A DNA stretch of 55,191 nt from Anaerolineaceae bacterium (lineage in GTDB: Bacteria > Chloroflexota > Anaerolineae > Anaerolineales > Anaerolineaceae), in assembly GCA_002702705.1 (NCBI GenBank), contig PABH01000019.1, forward strand, positions 1 to 55,191, written 5' to 3'. The number at the start of each line of letters is the position of its first letter. Position 1 is the first letter of the stretch. The position numbers were made by a program, and so were the translations under genes. This document shows positions 16,029-23,231 of the stretch, one piece after another. The notes below the pieces were generated by a model. It made no database searches and was not told where the DNA came from. It worked only from the letters and a program-made list of their open reading frames with translations.

Positions 16029-16109
16029 GAAATTAAGTTTGGGCGCCTTACAGCTTCATTTCTTTTTTGCCCTTGGGATCAAACACAAATTAAATCAATT
16101 GAGGTGATC

Positions 16110-17000
16110 ATGGATGGATTGACTTCAGCCGGCACACGTTTTCGGGCGGCTTTGGTTTCCGAAAAACCCCTGCAAGTTGTGGGGGTTCTCAATGCCTATA
16201 CTGCACTGTTAGCCCAACAAAGTGGTTTTCGTGCAATTTATCTCTCCGGTGGTGGAGTAGCAGCGGGTTCTTTGGGTGTACCGGATTTGGGTATCACAAC
16301 ACTGGATGATGTCTTAACCGATGTCAGACGTATTACGGATATTACGGATTTGCCCTTGTTGGTCGATGTAGATACAGGTTTTGGTGGCGCTTTTAATATA
16401 GCCCGCACAGTACGTTCTTTAATAAAATTTGGTGCAGCTGGTTTACATATGGAAGATCAAGTGCAAGCAAAACGCTGTGGACACCGTCCCGGTAAAGCCC
16501 TTGTGGAAGCTGAGGAAATGGTAGACCGAATCAAAGCTGCTGTGGATGCTCGCAGTGACCCTGATTTTGTAATTATGGCACGTACGGATGCTTTGGCTGG
16601 TGAGGGTTTGCAATCTGCATTGGATCGCGCCAGTATGTATGTGGCTGCTGGAGCAGACATGATTTTTGCGGAAGCGGTGACAGAGTTATCTCAATACCGC
16701 GCCTTTGTGGATGCGGTAAACGTACCTATTCTGGCAAATATTACCGAATTTGGTAAAACACCGCTGTTTACCACCAAAGAATTGGCAGCAGTTGGAGTCA
16801 GTCTGATTTTATATCCCCTTTCCGCTTTTCGTGCCCAAAGTGCAGCCGCTCTATCGGTATTTACAGCCATACGCCAGGAAGGTACCCAAAAATCCGTATT
16901 AGCACAAATGCAAACCAGAGCAGATTTATATGATGTTTTGGATTATCACCGTTATGAACAAAAATTAGATCAACTTTTTTTACAGGAGAAAAAGGAATGA
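16110..17000 (+). CDS. prpB: 2-methylisocitrate lyase
   Basis: Isocitrate-lyase/PEP-mutase superfamily enzyme (296 residues) that cleaves 2-methylisocitrate to pyruvate and succinate, the last step of the methylcitrate cycle of propionyl-CoA oxidation. It shows [20 protein letters not shown], the metal-binding [16 protein letters not shown] segment and the catalytic loop KRCGHRPGK that distinguishes PrpB from PEP mutases. The ATG at 16110 follows GAGG by 5 bases; a GTG at 16104 is the alternative. The stop overlaps the prpC start as ATGA, and prpD follows, so the functional assignment is strongly supported by context. Confidence 0.93.
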
Positions 17001-18157
17001 GTGAGCAAGTTTTAACAAAGCAGGAGCAAAAAAAGAAGAAATCAGTACAACTTTCCGGTTTACCAGCCGGATCAACCGCTATCTGTACGGTTGGGCGTGA
17101 AGGTAAGGAATTACGTTACCGTGGGTATGATATTAATGATTTGGCAGAATTTGCAACCTTTGAAGAGGTCGCTTATCTTCTAATCAATGGTGAATTGCCT
17201 ATAAAAAATGAATTGAATCGTTATCGTCGGAAATTAAAAAATTTACGCGGATTACCAGCCCCGGTTAAAGCAGTGCTTGAACAAATTCCTGCTGCTACTC
17301 ACCCGATGGATGTAATGCGGACAGGAGCATCGATTCTGGGATCAGTTTTACCTGAGCGAACAGATCACACCCCGGAAGGTGCCCGCCATATTGCAGATCA
17401 TCTTCTGGCGATTTTCCCATCAATGTTATTGTATTGGTATCATTTTACCCATCATGGCCGTCGGATCGATGTGGAGACTGACGATGATTCAATTGCTGGT
17501 CATTTTTTGCACCTTTTGCATGGTCATAAACCAAGTGAATTATATGAACGAACATTGGATATTACTTTTACTCTCTATGCTGAACATGAGTTTAATGCTT
17601 CTACGTTCACCAGTCGCGTCATCGCTGGAACAGGAACGGATTTATATTCCTCCATCACCGGTTCGATTGGTGCTTTGAAAGGATTTAAACATGGCGGTGC
17701 GAATGAAGGGGCTCTGGAAGTTATCGAAAGATACAAATCCGCAAATGAAGCTGCAGAAGATGTAAAACGAATCTTGCGTAATAAAGGTATCATCCTTGGT
17801 TTTGGCCATCCCGTTTACACCATCTCCGACCCAAGGGCAAAGATCTTAAAAGAATTATCCTGTACCTTATGTAAAGATTTTGGTGATGAGACCATGTGTG
17901 ATATTGCAGAACGGATTGAAGAGGTGATGTGGAACGAAAAGAAGATGTTTCCAAATCTGGATTGGTATGCAGCTGTAACCTACAATGTGATGGGCATACC
18001 AACGGCCATGTTCACGCCGTTGTTTGTAATGGCACGTACTGCTGGTTGGGCGGCGCATGTGATCGAACAGCGCCAAGATGGACGGATCATTCGTCCCTCC
18101 GCAGAATATACAGGACCTGAAACACAAGAATTCATTGCTTTGGAAATGCGGGAATAG
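16997..18157 (+). CDS. prpC: 2-methylcitrate synthase
   Basis: Citrate-synthase-family enzyme of 386 residues condensing propionyl-CoA with oxaloacetate. It has the short bacterial type II layout: [14 protein letters not shown] with [10 protein letters not shown] at the N-terminus, [14 protein letters not shown] (first catalytic histidine region), [14 protein letters not shown] (second histidine) and [13 protein letters not shown] (catalytic aspartate). It overlaps prpB by 4 bases and is followed 13 bases later by prpD. Many such enzymes also accept acetyl-CoA, so it could double as citrate synthase; no other citrate synthase is in the window. Confidence 0.93.
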
Positions 18158-18170
18158 AAAGGAATTCAGA

Positions 18171-19613
18171 ATGGGTGCTGGTTTCAGTAATGTCCGGCCG
18201 GAGGCCGATCTGGTTTTGCAAAAAATCGCAGATTATGTATTAGAAAAAGAAATTACAAGTGTGGAAGCTTACCAAACTGCACGATATGATCTTTTGGACA
18301 CCCTTGGCTGCGGTTTGGAAGCTTTGTCCTATCCGGCCTGTACCAAGTTGTTGGGTCCCATTGTTCCTGGTACGGTGGTACCAAATGGCGCACGAGTGCC
18401 CGGCACCCGTTTTGTACTTGACCCTGTTCAGGCTGCATTTAATATTGGGGCTATTATTCGCTGGTTGGATTTTAACGATACCTGGCTGGCAGCTGAATGG
18501 GGACATCCCAGCGATAATTTAGGTGGAATTTTAGCAGTTGCAGATTGGATTTCTCGAACCCGTGTTGCAGCTGGAAGGCAACCTCTCTTAATGCGTGATG
18601 TGTTAACCGCCATGATCAAAGCCCATGAAATTCAAGGTGTGATTGCTTTGGAAAACAGCTTTAACAGGGTGGGTTTGGATCATGTAATTTTGGTGAAGAT
18701 TGCCAGCACAGCAGTGGTGACTGCCATGTTGGGTGGGAACCGTGAAGAAGTGATCAATGCCCTCAGCAACGCCTGGATTGATGGGCAGGCTTTGCGAACA
18801 TATCGCCACGCACCAAATACTGGTTCACGTAAGTCTTGGGCAGCAGGTGATGCTACCAGTCGAGCGGTGCAGCTTGCATTGATGGCTTTAAAAGGTGAAA
18901 TGGGTTATCCCTCCGCATTAACTGCAAAGGGCTGGGGATTTTATGATGTCTTATTTAAAGGGAAAACCTTTACTTTTCCTCAAGAATTTAGTTCGTATGT
19001 GATGGAAAATGTGCTGTTTAAGATTTCTTTTCCAGCTGAATTTCATGCTCAAACCGCTGTAGAAGCAGCGATTACTTTACATCCTCATGTAAAAGACCGA
19101 TTACCGGAAATTGAAAAAATACAAATTACAAGCCATGAATCGGCCATCCGTATCATCGACAAACAAGGTCCACTCCATAATCCGGCTGACCGTGACCATT
19201 GTTTGCAGTATATGACAGCCGTAGGACTGATTTATGGAGACTTAACAGCCGCTCATTATGAAGATGAAACGGCAAGTAATCCGCTGATCGATCGTCTACG
19301 AGAAAAAATGGTGGTGGTAGAAGATAAAAGCTACAGCGAGGATTACCTGAACCCGAAAAAACGGTCGATTACCAACGCCGTCCAAGTATTTTTTGTGGAT
19401 GGCACGCAGACAGAAAATGTGGTGGTGGAATATCCTATTGGTCACCGCCGCCGCCGGGCAGAGGGTTTGCCGATGCTGGTGAAAAAATTTAAGACCAATT
19501 TGGCCCGACGCTTCCCAGAAAAACAAGTCCAACAAATTTTGGAACTAGGGCTAGATGACTCACGGTTCGGGAACACCCCGGTGAATGAATTTATGGATTT
19601 GTGGGTAATTTAA
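18171..19613 (+). CDS. prpD: 2-methylcitrate dehydratase
   Basis: MmgE/PrpD-family enzyme of 480 residues dehydrating 2-methylcitrate to cis-aconitate-type products. Family landmarks include [34 protein letters not shown] (conserved near residues 97-116), [23 protein letters not shown] and the C-terminal [19 protein letters not shown]. The ATG at 18171 has AAAGGA 7 bases before it; a longer in-frame start at 18078 would overlap prpC by 80 bases and lacks support. The three genes form a tight operon. No prpE, acnD or PrpR-type regulator is adjacent, so activation of propionate and control lie elsewhere. Confidence 0.93.
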
Positions 19614-19677: not shown

Positions 19678-20559
19678 TTGAAAACACAACCACCTTCCAA
19701 TCCGATTAAACCGAAACCTGTTCAACGTATTCGCCAGACAGCATTGATTATAGCTGGCGTGTTAGTCATCTTTTTTGCCACCTTTAATCTCTTGTTTGAT
19801 TTGGGTGTTATATCGCAAGAAGATTTGGACACCTTGCGAGTGCGGATCTTATATACAGCTACTCCTCCGGTAGTGGTGCAGTACCGTCCAGGTGCAAATG
19901 AGACCACCATGGGGGAAACACCGCAGCTAATCGATATTATTCCGACCAACACCCCGCAACCAACTCCTGTTTTGATTACAACGGAAGATAGTGGTTTTTT
20001 ACCGCTGCAAATCGAACAGTTGGAAATTGAACAAAGCCAACAAGAAAACACAAACAATGAAACTCCGCTGGTTGTTCCAATCGAATTAATTATTCCTTCC
20101 ATAAATCTGGATGCACCCATCATTCAGGCTGAACAAGATGAGATTATAACGGATGGTGTCACGTATGCCCAATGGCAAGCCCCTAACGAATTTGCAGGTG
20201 GTTGGCACCGTGATTCTGCTGGTTTGGGCCAGATTGGGAATACGGTTATCAACGGACACCATAATATTAATGGAGAAGTATTTAAAGACCTTGATAAATT
20301 AACCGAAGGTGACCGAATTTCAGTGTATGGTGAAGATGGAAACCGGTATAGCTTTTTGGTTACCAATGTAATGATCCTGGAAGAAAGAGATGCCCCGCTA
20401 GAGCAGCGGTTAGAGAATGCACGCTGGATTTTGCCCTCTGATGATGAACGGCTGACCTTGATCACCTGTTGGCCATATTATTCAAACACTCACCGCCTGG
20501 TGATTGTTGCCAAGCCTCTAGAAACCGATTCATTCAAACATGCTCAGCTGGGTGATTAA
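19678..20559 (+). CDS. Sortase (class D/E-like)
   Basis: Membrane-anchored transpeptidase of 293 residues with an N-terminal transmembrane segment (about 20-42) and a long Thr/Pro/Gln-rich spacer (about 60-130). The catalytic beta-barrel spans about 131-282. H194 in VINGHHN, C264 in LTLITCWPYY and R273 in THRLVIVAKP form the expected His-Cys-Arg triad. It should attach proteins with an LPxTG-like signal to the cell surface. A likely substrate with IPVTGG is encoded 1.4 kb downstream. The TLITCWP context is like class D/E sortases. The start is a TTG at 19678 with GGAGA 11 bases upstream. A monoderm envelope is implied. Confidence 0.9.
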   Translation: MKTQPPSNPIKPKPVQRIRQTALIIAGVLVIFFATFNLLFDLGVISQEDLDTLRVRILYTATPPVVVQYRPGANETTMGETPQLIDIIPTNTPQPTPVLITTEDSGFLPLQIEQLEIEQSQQENTNNETPLVVPIELIIPSINLDAPIIQAEQDEIITDGVTYAQWQAPNEFAGGWHRDSAGLGQIGNTVINGHHNINGEVFKDLDKLTEGDRISVYGEDGNRYSFLVTNVMILEERDAPLEQRLENARWILPSDDERLTLITCWPYYSNTHRLVIVAKPLETDSFKHAQLGD

Positions 20560-20884
20560 TTATAATAAGCAATAATATTCTTCTATTGCCTTTATTGTTA
20601 ATGACTTCGATCCAGTACACTCAAACGTACAAAGGAAAACTTTCTGAATAATAGTAAATTTTTTAAATTAGTAAAACTTATGAAGGATGATACTAACCAA
20701 CCAATAAAATATTGTATAACCTTTAAAAAAATGCTCGGTTTGTAAATATAACCAATTTCAAACATACACGTCAAAAAATTACTTTTAATGTGACAATTTT
20801 GCTGTTCGCCCCATGATTATTTAAGAATATGACCTGTTTTTTGTTTTGGTAATAAAAACAGTTAGAAACTGGTTTGAAAAGGGG
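20560..20884. other. Intergenic region between sortase and tandem RNA, nothing recognised
   Basis: AT-rich segment downstream of the sortase gene. I see no terminator with a clear T-tail, no credible frame and no repeat. The structured RNA begins further on, near 20951. Confidence 0.5.
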
Positions 20885-20913
20885 TTGACTTTTGTCAATT
20901 ATCGTGCAATAAT
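20885..20913 (+). promoter_or_regulatory. Candidate promoter of the RNA/response-regulator transcript
   Basis: TTGACT (20885-20890) and AATAAT (20908-20913) have a 17-base spacer, about 38 bases before the first structured RNA. A TATAAT at 20922-20927 lacks a -35 at suitable distance. The arrangement would put both RNA copies in the 5' leader of the downstream operon. Confidence 0.5.
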
Positions 20914-20950
20914 AAGACCAATATAATCTAAATAGTCGCAGTACAGTTTG

Positions 20951-21052
20951 GAGGCTATGAAACGAGCATAATTGGTCGCTTCTTCCTAATAATAGGAAGG
21001 GTGCTCGTGGAGCCAAGTAGCGAAACCGGCCGAGTTTTTGGTCGGTTCTTGT
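20951..21052 (+). ncRNA. Structured leader RNA, copy 1, with terminator (class unassigned)
   Basis: First of two near-identical elements. Pairings seen: P1 GGCT (20953-20956) with AGCC (21011-21014); P2 ACGAGCA (20962-20968) with TGCTCGT (21002-21008); P3 CTTCCT (20982-20987) with AGGAAG (20994-20999); and a pseudoknot of TCGCT (20976-20980) with AGCGA (21019-21023). A terminator-like stem follows at once, AACCGGCC (21024-21031) with GGTCGGTT (21040-21047), then CTTGTTTCTT. Conserved unpaired strings include TGAAACGAG, TTGGTCGCT and GTGGAGCCAA. It resembles a compact pseudoknotted riboswitch, but I could not match it to a known class. Confidence 0.75.
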
Positions 21053-21090
21053 TTCTTAAACCTTAACAGTTTTTATAATTATTATTTTGA

Positions 21091-21190
21091 GGCAGTGAAA
21101 CGAGTATTAATTTGGTCGCTTTTTCCTGATTGGGAAAAATACTCGTGGAGCCAAATAGCGAAACCGGCAGAAAAACTGCTGGTTTTTTTT
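21091..21190 (+). ncRNA. Structured leader RNA, copy 2, with terminator (class unassigned)
   Basis: Second copy, about 140 bases after the first. P1 is GGC (21091-21093) with GCC (21150-21152). P2 is longer here, ACGAGTATT (21100-21108) with AATACTCGT (21138-21146), and a C-G pair of copy 1 is replaced by T-A, which is compensatory. P3 is TTTTCC (21121-21126) with GGAAAA (21133-21138), sharing its last base with P2. The pseudoknot TCGCT (21116-21120) with AGCGA (21157-21161) is identical to copy 1. AACCGGCAG (21162-21170) with CTGCTGGTT (21176-21184) and a long T run form an intrinsic terminator. The response regulator start is 20 bases further on. Confidence 0.8.
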
Positions 21191-21209
21191 ATTTTTAGAA
21201 GGAGGCGCA

Positions 21210-21974
21210 ATGGTAGCAGATTTAAAGGACACAACTACCCACACAGAAGTCCAAGCTCTCGGTTTAGATCTGGATGAATCATTAAAACGGAATAAACGGG
21301 TAATGATTATTGACGATGACCCAGATACGGTAGAACTACTAAAACGAATTTTGCGTCTGGCAGATTTTGATGTTGCTTCTGCTCGGAATGGTATTGAAGC
21401 ACCAGTTATTGCAGAAAAAGTGGAGCCGGATGTAATTTTATTAGATATGATGATGCCTGAAGTGGATGGGAAAGAAACATTCCGCAATTTGAGAAAAGTC
21501 ACTCGTGCACCAATTATTGTTGTTTCTGCTTTGTCCAGTAAAGAAATGATCGTTGATTTATTAAATTTAGGCACAGATGATTATGTGACCAAGCCTTTTC
21601 ATCGTGATGAGATAGTTGCTCGGATTAATGCGGTATTACGGCGAAGTAAACAAAAATCAGTTTTTGATGGTGTTTCCATTCCTGAAATAGGTTTCATGAT
21701 TAATTTCTCAAAAAGAGAGGTTCAATATAATGGTAATTTTGTACATCTATCACCCAAAGAGTTTAACTTAGTGCAATTATTAGCCCAAAATCTGCCTCAT
21801 GTCGTTCAATACGATGAAATTGCAGAAGAAATTTGGGGAGAAACCCAATCAGACGTTAAAAATAGAATCAAGTACCTGGTTCATTTGATCCGAAAGAAAT
21901 TTTCCGCGATTAATCCTGAAATCGAAGTCATTATCACAGTTGATCGATTTGGATATCGTTTGCGCACAGAATGA
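21210..21974 (+). CDS. Response regulator with winged-helix output domain
   Basis: Response regulator of 254 residues with a 28-residue N-terminal extension before the receiver domain. The receiver holds IIDDDPDT (33-40), phosphoacceptor D79 in VILLDMMMPEVDG, and a TKPFHRDE lysine. A C-terminal OmpR-type winged helix (about 160-252) includes LSPKEFNLVQLLAQN and ends VDRFGYRLRTE. AGGAGG 7 bases before the ATG gives a strong initiation site. No histidine kinase is adjacent, so it is an orphan here. It lies directly after the tandem RNA and 33 bases before the surface-protein gene, so the RNA probably controls both. Confidence 0.92.
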   Translation: MVADLKDTTTHTEVQALGLDLDESLKRNKRVMIIDDDPDTVELLKRILRLADFDVASARNGIEAPVIAEKVEPDVILLDMMMPEVDGKETFRNLRKVTRAPIIVVSALSSKEMIVDLLNLGTDDYVTKPFHRDEIVARINAVLRRSKQKSVFDGVSIPEIGFMINFSKREVQYNGNFVHLSPKEFNLVQLLAQNLPHVVQYDEIAEEIWGETQSDVKNRIKYLVHLIRKKFSAINPEIEVIITVDRFGYRLRTE

Positions 21975-22007: not shown

Positions 22008-23231
22008 ATGTTTTTCAATAATTTACGTTCAGGATTAAGAACTGCTTCTCATATCAGTTACTTATTGGGGGTTCTCAGTATCGTTTTAGCCTTGTCTTTA
22101 TCTTTGGTTAACTTCCCCGTAATGGCACAAAATATCAGTGGTGCTTCATTGGTAGCGAGTGGGGGTTGTAGCGGTGGTTGTAACGGTATTAGTGCTACTT
22201 TTACGAACCATGGCTCGGGTGACATGACAGAAGCTGTGGTTTATGAAGTCCAATCTCGTGTTAATGGTGTTTGGATCGTTGTGGATTCTGGCACGTTAGG
22301 ACCCTTAGCAAGTGGAGAAAGCCAGACAGTTTCATATAACCCTAACAATGTTTCCGGTACATATCGTTTCAAAGCATACCAACCAGCAGGCCATCCTGGT
22401 TCGGGTGTATTGTACTCAAGTGCTTGTAAATTTGAATGTGTATTGCCATCACCAACACCAGTGACGCCGACTGCTACCCCCGTTACCCCAACATCAACTC
22501 CGGTGACACCAACCTTTACACCAACCTTTACTTCTACACCGGTAACTCCGACTGCTACGCCCATTACACCTACATCGACACCGGTAACTCCAACATCAAC
22601 ACCGGTGACACCAACCTTTACACCCACATTCACATCAACCCCTGTGACAGCAACCCCACAAGAACCAACCCCAACCCCACAGGAACCGACTAATACGCCA
22701 ACATTTACTTCGACACCGGTAACACCGACAGCTACACCCATTACACCTACATCGACACCAGTAACGGCTACGCCACAAGAACCAACACCAACCCCACAGG
22801 AGCCTACCTCTACGCCACAAGAACCGACTCCAACACCTCAGGAGCCTACATCAACCCCTGTGACTGCTACGCCACAAGAACCAACGCCTACCCCACAGGA
22901 ACCTACCTCTACGCCAAGCAATCCTACGGAGACCCCTGTTGTCACAACCACTCCGGTTACAGCAACACCACAGGAACCGACTCCTACACCACAAGAACCT
23001 GGAACTACACCTCAGGAACCTACTAAAGTAGTTACACAAGTTCCGCCCACCAAAGTTCCAACGTTAGGTGTTCCATCCGTGGTTGACCAACCCAGTGTAT
23101 TGATCCCAGTTACTGGTGGTGATATGTCCCCTGTTTCTCCATTGGAAGCAGCTCAGAAGGTCGCCTTTAATCTCGGTTTGGGATTTGTCGGATTAGGTCT
23201 CGTACTGCAAGGACTTCGTAGACGTTTCTAA
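22008..23231 (+). CDS. Sortase-anchored Thr/Pro-rich surface protein
   Basis: Secreted protein of 407 residues. The ATG at 22008 follows GGAAGGAGAG; a TTG at 21990 is less likely. A signal peptide (about 1-41, ending VMAQ) precedes a cysteine-bearing beta-rich domain of about 105 residues (CSGGCNGISATFTNHGSGDM to ACKFECV). Then comes a Thr/Pro stalk of about 190 residues with TPVTPTATP and QEPTPTPQEP units. The C-terminus is a sorting signal: IPVTGG (366-371), a hydrophobic stretch and RRRF. This is the expected substrate of the sortase at 19678. The ligand of the N-terminal domain is unknown. Confidence 0.9.
   Translation: MFFNNLRSGLRTASHISYLLGVLSIVLALSLSLVNFPVMAQNISGASLVASGGCSGGCNGISATFTNHGSGDMTEAVVYEVQSRVNGVWIVVDSGTLGPLASGESQTVSYNPNNVSGTYRFKAYQPAGHPGSGVLYSSACKFECVLPSPTPVTPTATPVTPTSTPVTPTFTPTFTSTPVTPTATPITPTSTPVTPTSTPVTPTFTPTFTSTPVTATPQEPTPTPQEPTNTPTFTSTPVTPTATPITPTSTPVTATPQEPTPTPQEPTSTPQEPTPTPQEPTSTPVTATPQEPTPTPQEPTSTPSNPTETPVVTTTPVTATPQEPTPTPQEPGTTPQEPTKVVTQVPPTKVPTLGVPSVVDQPSVLIPVTGGDMSPVSPLEAAQKVAFNLGLGFVGLGLVLQGLRRRF
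22446..23026 (+). repeat. Thr/Pro coding tandem repeats
   Basis: Imperfect tandem repeats in the stalk of the surface protein. The first part uses a TPVTPT(A/S/F)TP unit and the second a QEPTPTPQEPTSTP unit, with codons varied (ACA, ACT, ACC, ACG), so the DNA copies are divergent. One longer block, TFTSTPVTPTATPITPTSTP, occurs twice (near 22521 and 22699). Repeat number is likely to vary among strains and could vary stalk length. Confidence 0.85.

Follow-up and report, generated by a model that had tools for sequence, protein, structure and literature searches.

Organization of the locus

The window, that is, the whole stretch of DNA analysed (55,191 nucleotides of contig PABH01000019.1), belongs to an Anaerolineaceae genome assembly of 5.9 Mb in 74 contigs (GCA_002702705.1). 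On its forward strand, two related RNA elements lie in series between a sortase gene and the gene of an OmpR-type response regulator, which is followed by the gene of a repeat-rich protein (Table 1). The regulator of the preliminary description and the sortase were confirmed by domain matches; that the regulator is an orphan was judged by eye among the open reading frames. The repeat-rich protein contains proline/threonine repeats and ends, as read by eye, in LIPVTGG, a hydrophobic stretch and RRR, an ending common to a homologue. No Pfam match was found for this protein, and its score with TIGR04087 was 31.4 bits, below the cut-off of 80. Judging from its sequence, it is probably a sortase substrate and would be attached to the surface. 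The reported place of the elements before a regulator and a surface protein is supported, with the surface character read from the sorting-type end. Upstream of the sortase gene, three open frames at 16104-19613 resemble by eye methylisocitrate lyase, citrate synthase and PrpD, and this region is possibly a methylcitrate cluster.

Table 1. Features of the tandem element locus (positions in the window)
Feature	Position	Strand	Basis
Sortase gene upstream of the switches	19678..20559	+	PF04203, 91.5 bits
Sigma-70-like promoter, TTGACT-17-AATAAT, TG before second hexamer	20885..20913	+	Consensus match only, 10/12
Copy 1, riboswitch aptamer of c-di-GMP-II type	20941..21040	+	RF01786 41.0 bits; model R1 72.3 bits
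Copy 1, pseudoknot 5' strand TCGCT (partner 21019-21023)	20976..20980	+	Sequence; counts in relatives
Copy 1, hairpin P3 (extra hairpin in loop)	20981..21000	+	Predicted fold; helix counts in relatives
Copy 1, extra nucleotide between P2 GCC strand and A61	21015	+	Which of two adjacent As is ambiguous
Copy 1, pseudoknot 3' strand AGCGA	21019..21023	+	Sequence; counts in relatives
Copy 1, terminator; 5' arm is AACCG strand and first bases of P1 3' strand	21024..21047	+	Terminator scan, fold
Copy 2, riboswitch aptamer of c-di-GMP-II type	21079..21178	+	RF01786 47.3 bits; model R1 73.2 bits
Copy 2, pseudoknot 5' strand TCGCT (partner 21157-21161)	21116..21120	+	Sequence; counts in relatives
Copy 2, extra nucleotide beside A61	21153	+	Position ambiguous within AAA
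Copy 2, pseudoknot 3' strand AGCGA	21157..21161	+	Sequence; counts in relatives
Copy 2, terminator with T tract; AACCG within 5' arm	21160..21186	+	Terminator scan, fold
AGGAGG ahead of regulator	21200-21205	+	By eye
OmpR-type response regulator, first gene past the switches	21210..21974	+	PF00072 and PF00486
Repeat-rich protein, hydrophobic N-terminus, LIPVTGG sorting-type C-terminus (by eye)	22008..23231	+	Open reading frame, homologue

Structure and classification of the two copies

Both copies are present as described in tandem and start about 10 nt further 5' than had been noted, because the outer helix P1 begins there. In an alignment that includes the flanks, mean column identity between them is 83%. 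The P2 strands are ACGAGCAT/GTGCTCGT in copy 1 and ACGAGTAT/ATACTCGT in copy 2; the compensatory change from C-G to T-A can be read directly from these sequences, and the two pseudoknots are identical, as had been stated. The structure exceeds chance expectation by three lines of evidence: fold z-scores of -4.23 and -3.08, computed with the terminators included in the folded stretches, 72-73 bits from a model built without either copy, and covarying homologues. Both the riboswitch-like structure and the tandem arrangement are supported.

A scan of the whole window with Rfam at the gathering threshold gave no match, and the copies look unassigned because that scan is empty. In a relaxed scan of 381 nt, however, both copies matched RF01786 (c-di-GMP-II) over the full length of the model, with E values in this search of 1.8e-9 for copy 2 (47.3 bits) and 1.1e-7 for copy 1 (41.0 bits), and RF01786 was the best model of its clan for both, ahead of four weaker clan matches. 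Neither score reaches 53.5, the gathering score of RF01786, which is an annotation cut-off of Rfam and not a biological feature. Eleven other matches of the relaxed scan (STnc240, SpF25 and others, with E of 0.09 and worse) were dropped as chance. A strong Rfam match had been named as what would make the class a known one; the match exists, at sub-threshold strength, and the full-model matches speak against the label "unassigned". The copies share with RF01786 the helix P1, a split P2, the internal loops, a pseudoknot and nine contact bases. They differ in the pseudoknot, which is GCAC/GUGC in the family consensus and UCGCU/AGCGA here, in the addition of P3, which is placed after the 5' strand of the pseudoknot and before the 3' strand of P2, in an extra base beside A61 and in their score below the gathering level.

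Relatives and covariation

In the source genome, RF01786 matched eight times at E <= 10, each time below the cut-off, and the weakest of these matches mean little because 10 of 14 control genomes also match at this level, again with none over the cut-off. Six elements of this genome were taken as real: the window pair, a pair on contig C64, and singles on contigs C62 and C27. Among 400 genomes of the phylum, 103 matched RF01786 at E <= 0.001 and 48 exceeded the cut-off (0 of 14 controls). In the order of the source organism, 15 genomes matched, the source genome included, none over the RF01786 cut-off among the matches listed.

Seeded from the RF01786 matches, a lineage model (R1) was aligned from 15 elements of the order, one of them from the source genome (C27) and none from the window. 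Six of 21 rows were left out, namely the four regulator-linked copies of the source genome, G018b and G028, and several elements were never in the model set, e.g. L044, L053, L058, L059, L066-L073, L078 and L079. In the window, R1 gave the two copies 73.2 and 72.3 bits, and the next match scored 11.1; five of the six source-genome elements scored at least 51 bits, and that on C62 scored 33.8. Absence of homologues or of covariation had been named as an argument against a real structure; it is contradicted by R1 matches at E <= 0.001 in 122 of 301 genomes of the order and by the covariation of the helices.

Covariation was counted over 28 pairs in 128 matches, which comprise 116 distinct relatives. 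Double-sided changes were found in 26 of the 28 pairs, 86.9% of cells were paired, and the covariation score was 0.556, as against 0.177 for shuffles and a maximum of 0.121 for the structure in slid positions. All five measures exceeded all 500 shuffles and all slid versions, in counts that lean towards P1, P2 and P3, the helices to which the alignment was fitted. The pseudoknot is absent from the model. When it was counted by itself, 98.9% of cells were paired, compared with 94.8% after shuffling, and its covariation score was 0.127, whereas shuffles gave 0.046 and slid versions no more than 0.092. Almost all of its double changes fall at the last pair (UA, AU, CG, GC, UG), and the other four of the five pairs hardly vary. 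The extra hairpin P3 was 78.1% paired, and P1 was the weakest helix, with 70.7% of cells paired. The alignment used (A4) keeps at least five rows of another architecture (L044, L058, L067-L069).

One of these rows is the single element on C62 of the source genome (C62:21160-21277; L044 7160-7279), a c-di-GMP-II-type element with the canonical GGGCAC/GGTGC pseudoknot. Its extra sequence lies on the other side of the loop, it passes the cut-off of RF03169 (c-di-GMP-II-GAG), and it is found upstream of the gene of a 1611-residue protein with a hydrophobic N-terminus. The architecture differs from that of the window copies, and therefore two structural subtypes coexist in one genome.

Ligand pocket

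Ligand-contacting positions are given here in the numbering of structure 3Q3Z, with our own, tentative mapping of the numbers onto the motif. As listed in PMC7288161, the contacts are A13, A14, U37, G39, U60, A61, C68, A69, A70, C71, C72, G73 and A74. Both copies retain nine of the 13 (A13, U37, G39, A61, A69, A70, C71, C72 and G73) and depart from the list at the other four, with G at 14, C at 60, A at 68 and G at 74. The changed positions are not taken as defining, because 14 and 60 pair together and represent a pair exchange, 68 lies within the pseudoknot, and g at 74 and g/c at 14/60 are also the letters of the RF01786 consensus.

Most of these bases are kept among the distinct relatives: A61 in 114, A69 in 116, A70 in 115, and C71, C72 and G73 in all of the 116, and, of 111 relatives with letters at these positions, U37 in 109 and G39 in 110. 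Position 74 is G in 100 of 116. A13 is variable (76 A, 28 C, 7 G and 3 T in 114 relatives with letters).

The extra base between the P2 GCC strand and A61 occurs in 23 of the 116 distinct elements. It is present in 20 of 29 regulator-linked elements compared with 3 of 87 others, and two of those three follow a regulator in the same genus. An insertion of a single base next to the pocket, as seen in the majority of the regulator-linked copies examined, is possibly new, and it may mark common descent only. The regulator-linked copies might form a tuned or re-targeted branch of c-di-GMP-II, with shifted affinity or a changed cyclic-dinucleotide preference, which we consider rather unlikely. If the affinity were shifted, the c-di-GMP threshold of the regulator would differ from that of the other surface-gene switches, and a regulator-first cascade would follow.

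Terminators and transcriptional control

Each copy has its own terminator, as had been described: two intrinsic terminators were found in 20560-21260, compared with 0.5 +/- 0.9 in shuffles. In the window, the free fold is that of the terminator; 9.0 and 11.2 kcal/mol are needed to hold AGCGAAACCG in single-stranded form. The same design is widespread in the relatives. In 83 of 114 elements, and in 27 of 2280 sequences with a shuffled downstream part, a hairpin whose stem begins exactly with AACCG is followed by a T-rich tail; under a looser rule, with the stem starting anywhere in the first six bases, the counts were 84 of 114 elements and 41 shuffles. Two of the 116 distinct elements were untestable, and 30 or 31 of the 114 did not pass. 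Failure of the element C64b was, by reading, due to the T-tract rule only. The tandem pairs at L117 646-872 and L120 537-750 contain no copy passing the test, and they may be decayed or rely on a different expression platform.

Promoter-like sites in the region number nine, compared with 2.4 in shuffles. Control of the regulator by the switches is most likely transcriptional, because a promoter-like site precedes copy 1 and the AGGAGG ahead of the regulator sits past the second terminator. As far as can be judged from sequence, the locus has the organization of tandem riboswitches for the same ligand, in which each of two aptamers is joined to a putative expression platform of its own.

Conservation of the gene order and the wider regulon

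Among the named relatives found, the nearest is Chloroflexi bacterium HGW-Chloroflexi-10, in which contig PHBZ01000002.1 carries, in this order, tandem elements (61.8 and 57.8 bits), a regulator 73% identical to that of the window, a LIPVTGG protein 43% identical over 420 columns that are partly repeats, and a sortase-like protein 42% identical to the window's sortase. Relatives of the regulator at E <= 1e-60 were found in 51 of 147 genomes of the window's family. At 23 of 30 related-regulator loci examined, an element is located on the same strand no more than 450 nt upstream, with six doublets; at the remaining seven, no element was found within that distance. Seven genomes of the genus, the window's included, have such a regulator: in six of them a doublet precedes one such gene, and in G595 a single element does. 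In the eighth, G742, no such regulator was found at E <= 1e-60.

A second tandem pair exists in the source genome on C64 (L045 7132-7368), before a regulator 81% identical to that of the window. The contig ends about 600 bases past this regulator, and the two genes before the pair resemble, by eye, those before the pair of HGW-Chloroflexi-10. A triple array was seen at L126 4353-4746 before a regulator of the same kind; a terminator-like hairpin follows each of its copies by eye, and the first copy failed the terminator test.

After neighbouring copies were merged, 101 units were obtained, chosen with a bias to the window's family: 87 single, 13 double and 1 triple. In six units no open frame was found, and one downstream protein, which contains a masked run, was excluded from the Pfam scan. 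Both domains of an OmpR-type regulator are present in 19 of the 94 proteins encoded first downstream, each scanned over at most 450 residues; DUF11, beta-helix, MBG, SpaA-like, PKD, bacterial sugar transferase and ABC-2 matches occur in ones to sixes, and many proteins have no match among the 25 families listed. A hydrophobic N-terminus was found in 65 of 76 non-regulator downstream proteins, compared with 14 of 42 window open reading frames, a small control that includes overlapping frames. Doublets precede regulators in 8 of 19 units and other genes in 6 of 82 (Fisher p 5.7e-4, kinship ignored); when the single element L160 124-222, which lies at a locus end and has a regulator downstream, is moved to the regulator group, the counts become 8 of 20 and 6 of 81 (p 8.9e-4, kinship likewise ignored). 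In the source genome, matches at E <= 1e-10 number 39 for GGDEF and 5 for EAL. The regulators and hydrophobic N-termini among the downstream proteins suggest a surface regulon controlled by c-di-GMP in one order related to Chloroflexi.

Proposed function and alternative explanations

The two copies are very probably complete riboswitches of c-di-GMP-II type, arranged in series; each has an intrinsic terminator of its own and would act as an ON switch for the regulator and the surface protein. An ON switch is predicted because the strand that holds the ligand is also the strand that makes the terminator. Without ligand, the AACCG strand and the start of the P1 3' strand would fold into the terminator and transcription would stop. 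With c-di-GMP bound, the pseudoknot, the AACCG contacts and P1 would hold this strand, the terminator would be blocked and transcription would continue. The response to c-di-GMP is expected to be steeper than that of one switch, because both copies must be passed. Expression of the regulator and the surface protein, presumably transcribed together, would rise with c-di-GMP.

The alternative that survives best, and which we still regard as improbable, is a variant that keeps the aptamer fold but has a different cyclic dinucleotide or a related molecule as its ligand, as may be the case for the c-di-GMP-II-GAG and c-di-GMP-II-GCG families. The copies share with RF03169 (GAG) the overall fold and a UCGC/GCGA-type pseudoknot that resembles its consensus; copy 1 scores 38.9 bits with this model compared with 41.0 with RF01786, and both the extra base beside A61 and the G at contact 74 would be compatible with an altered ligand. 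The RF03169 consensus, however, has G at position 69 (GCGAGACCG), which appears to be its defining base and is also present in two GAG matches of the phylum that could be read (L273, L274), whereas both copies, like every one of the 116 distinct relatives, carry A there. Moreover, RF01786 is the best model of the clan for both copies, and the 39 GGDEF matches of the genome suit c-di-GMP. Membership in either variant family was rejected on sub-gathering scores (copy 1 is under the gathering score of 40 for RF03169, and its 31.6 bits with RF03170, GCG, are under 47.9) and on A at position 69 in place of the G69 of GAG; copy 2 is absent from the matches of both models among the 150 first-look candidates scored, and may still have a weak match with them.

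Still less probable are OFF switches, in which the ligand would promote termination. A terminator placed directly 3' of each aptamer would suit such a device, but here it takes the aptamer's own AACCG strand, so that bound aptamer and terminator are mutually exclusive; furthermore, all four class II switches of Clostridioides difficile treated in PMC6200980 are ON switches, three of them before known or putative adhesins. The new riboswitch class proposed in the preliminary description draws on the empty gathering-threshold scan and has hardly any probability left, being opposed by the relaxed scan, with its full-model matches to c-di-GMP-II, and by most of the contact bases being kept. Two plain terminators after the sortase gene, with no sensing function, can practically be dismissed: the elements are terminator-like and start about 380 nt past the sortase stop codon, but the aptamer core is conserved and covaries, and the placement before regulator and surface-type genes recurs in other genomes.

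Relation to known systems

For the two ON switches favoured here, the class, the tandem form and both kinds of target are already known. A survey of c-di-GMP-II (PMC9481103) lists 59 doublets and 9 triplets, most of which precede a surface-anchor gene in members of Paraclostridium and its relatives; Chloroflexi are not mentioned in the parts of the survey drawn on here. The window pair resembles those tandems, as the survey describes them, in having switches of the same class in series, which there mostly precede a putative surface-anchor gene, and differs in its host, a relative of Chloroflexi in place of mostly Paraclostridium and close relatives, and in its gene order, with a response regulator first and a probable anchored protein second. 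The cmrRST operon of C. difficile, according to PMC12548384, encodes OmpR-type regulators and is activated through a c-di-GMP riboswitch. The likeness lies in OmpR-type response regulator genes under an activating c-di-GMP riboswitch; as described in PMC12548384 and PMC6200980, one riboswitch, an invertible element and autoactivation operate there, whereas a doublet is found here. Riboswitches in general are given as enriched in Chloroflexota among other phyla in PMC12452182.

Among open-licence papers, none naming both c-di-GMP-II and Chloroflexi was found, nor was the lineage subtype or its regulon, which is weak evidence of absence. The subtype with the extra hairpin and the changed pseudoknot is possibly new. 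The Rfam cut-offs miss some members of this common lineage subtype, and other members pass only as c-di-GMP-II-GAG though they have no G69; such regulons are therefore probably under-annotated or mislabelled.

Several elements from other genomes of the order also exceed the RF03169 cut-off. The element on C27 of the source genome (L046 7998-8103) has RF03169 as its best match, with 41.3 bits against a cut-off of 40, yet carries A at position 69; its RF03169 label is possibly a mislabel. The genes after it are, by eye, those of a polysaccharide-export ABC transporter. In the phylum, 46 of 201 genomes have RF03169 matches above its cut-off; one of the genomes, G179, alone has 18 at E <= 1e-4.
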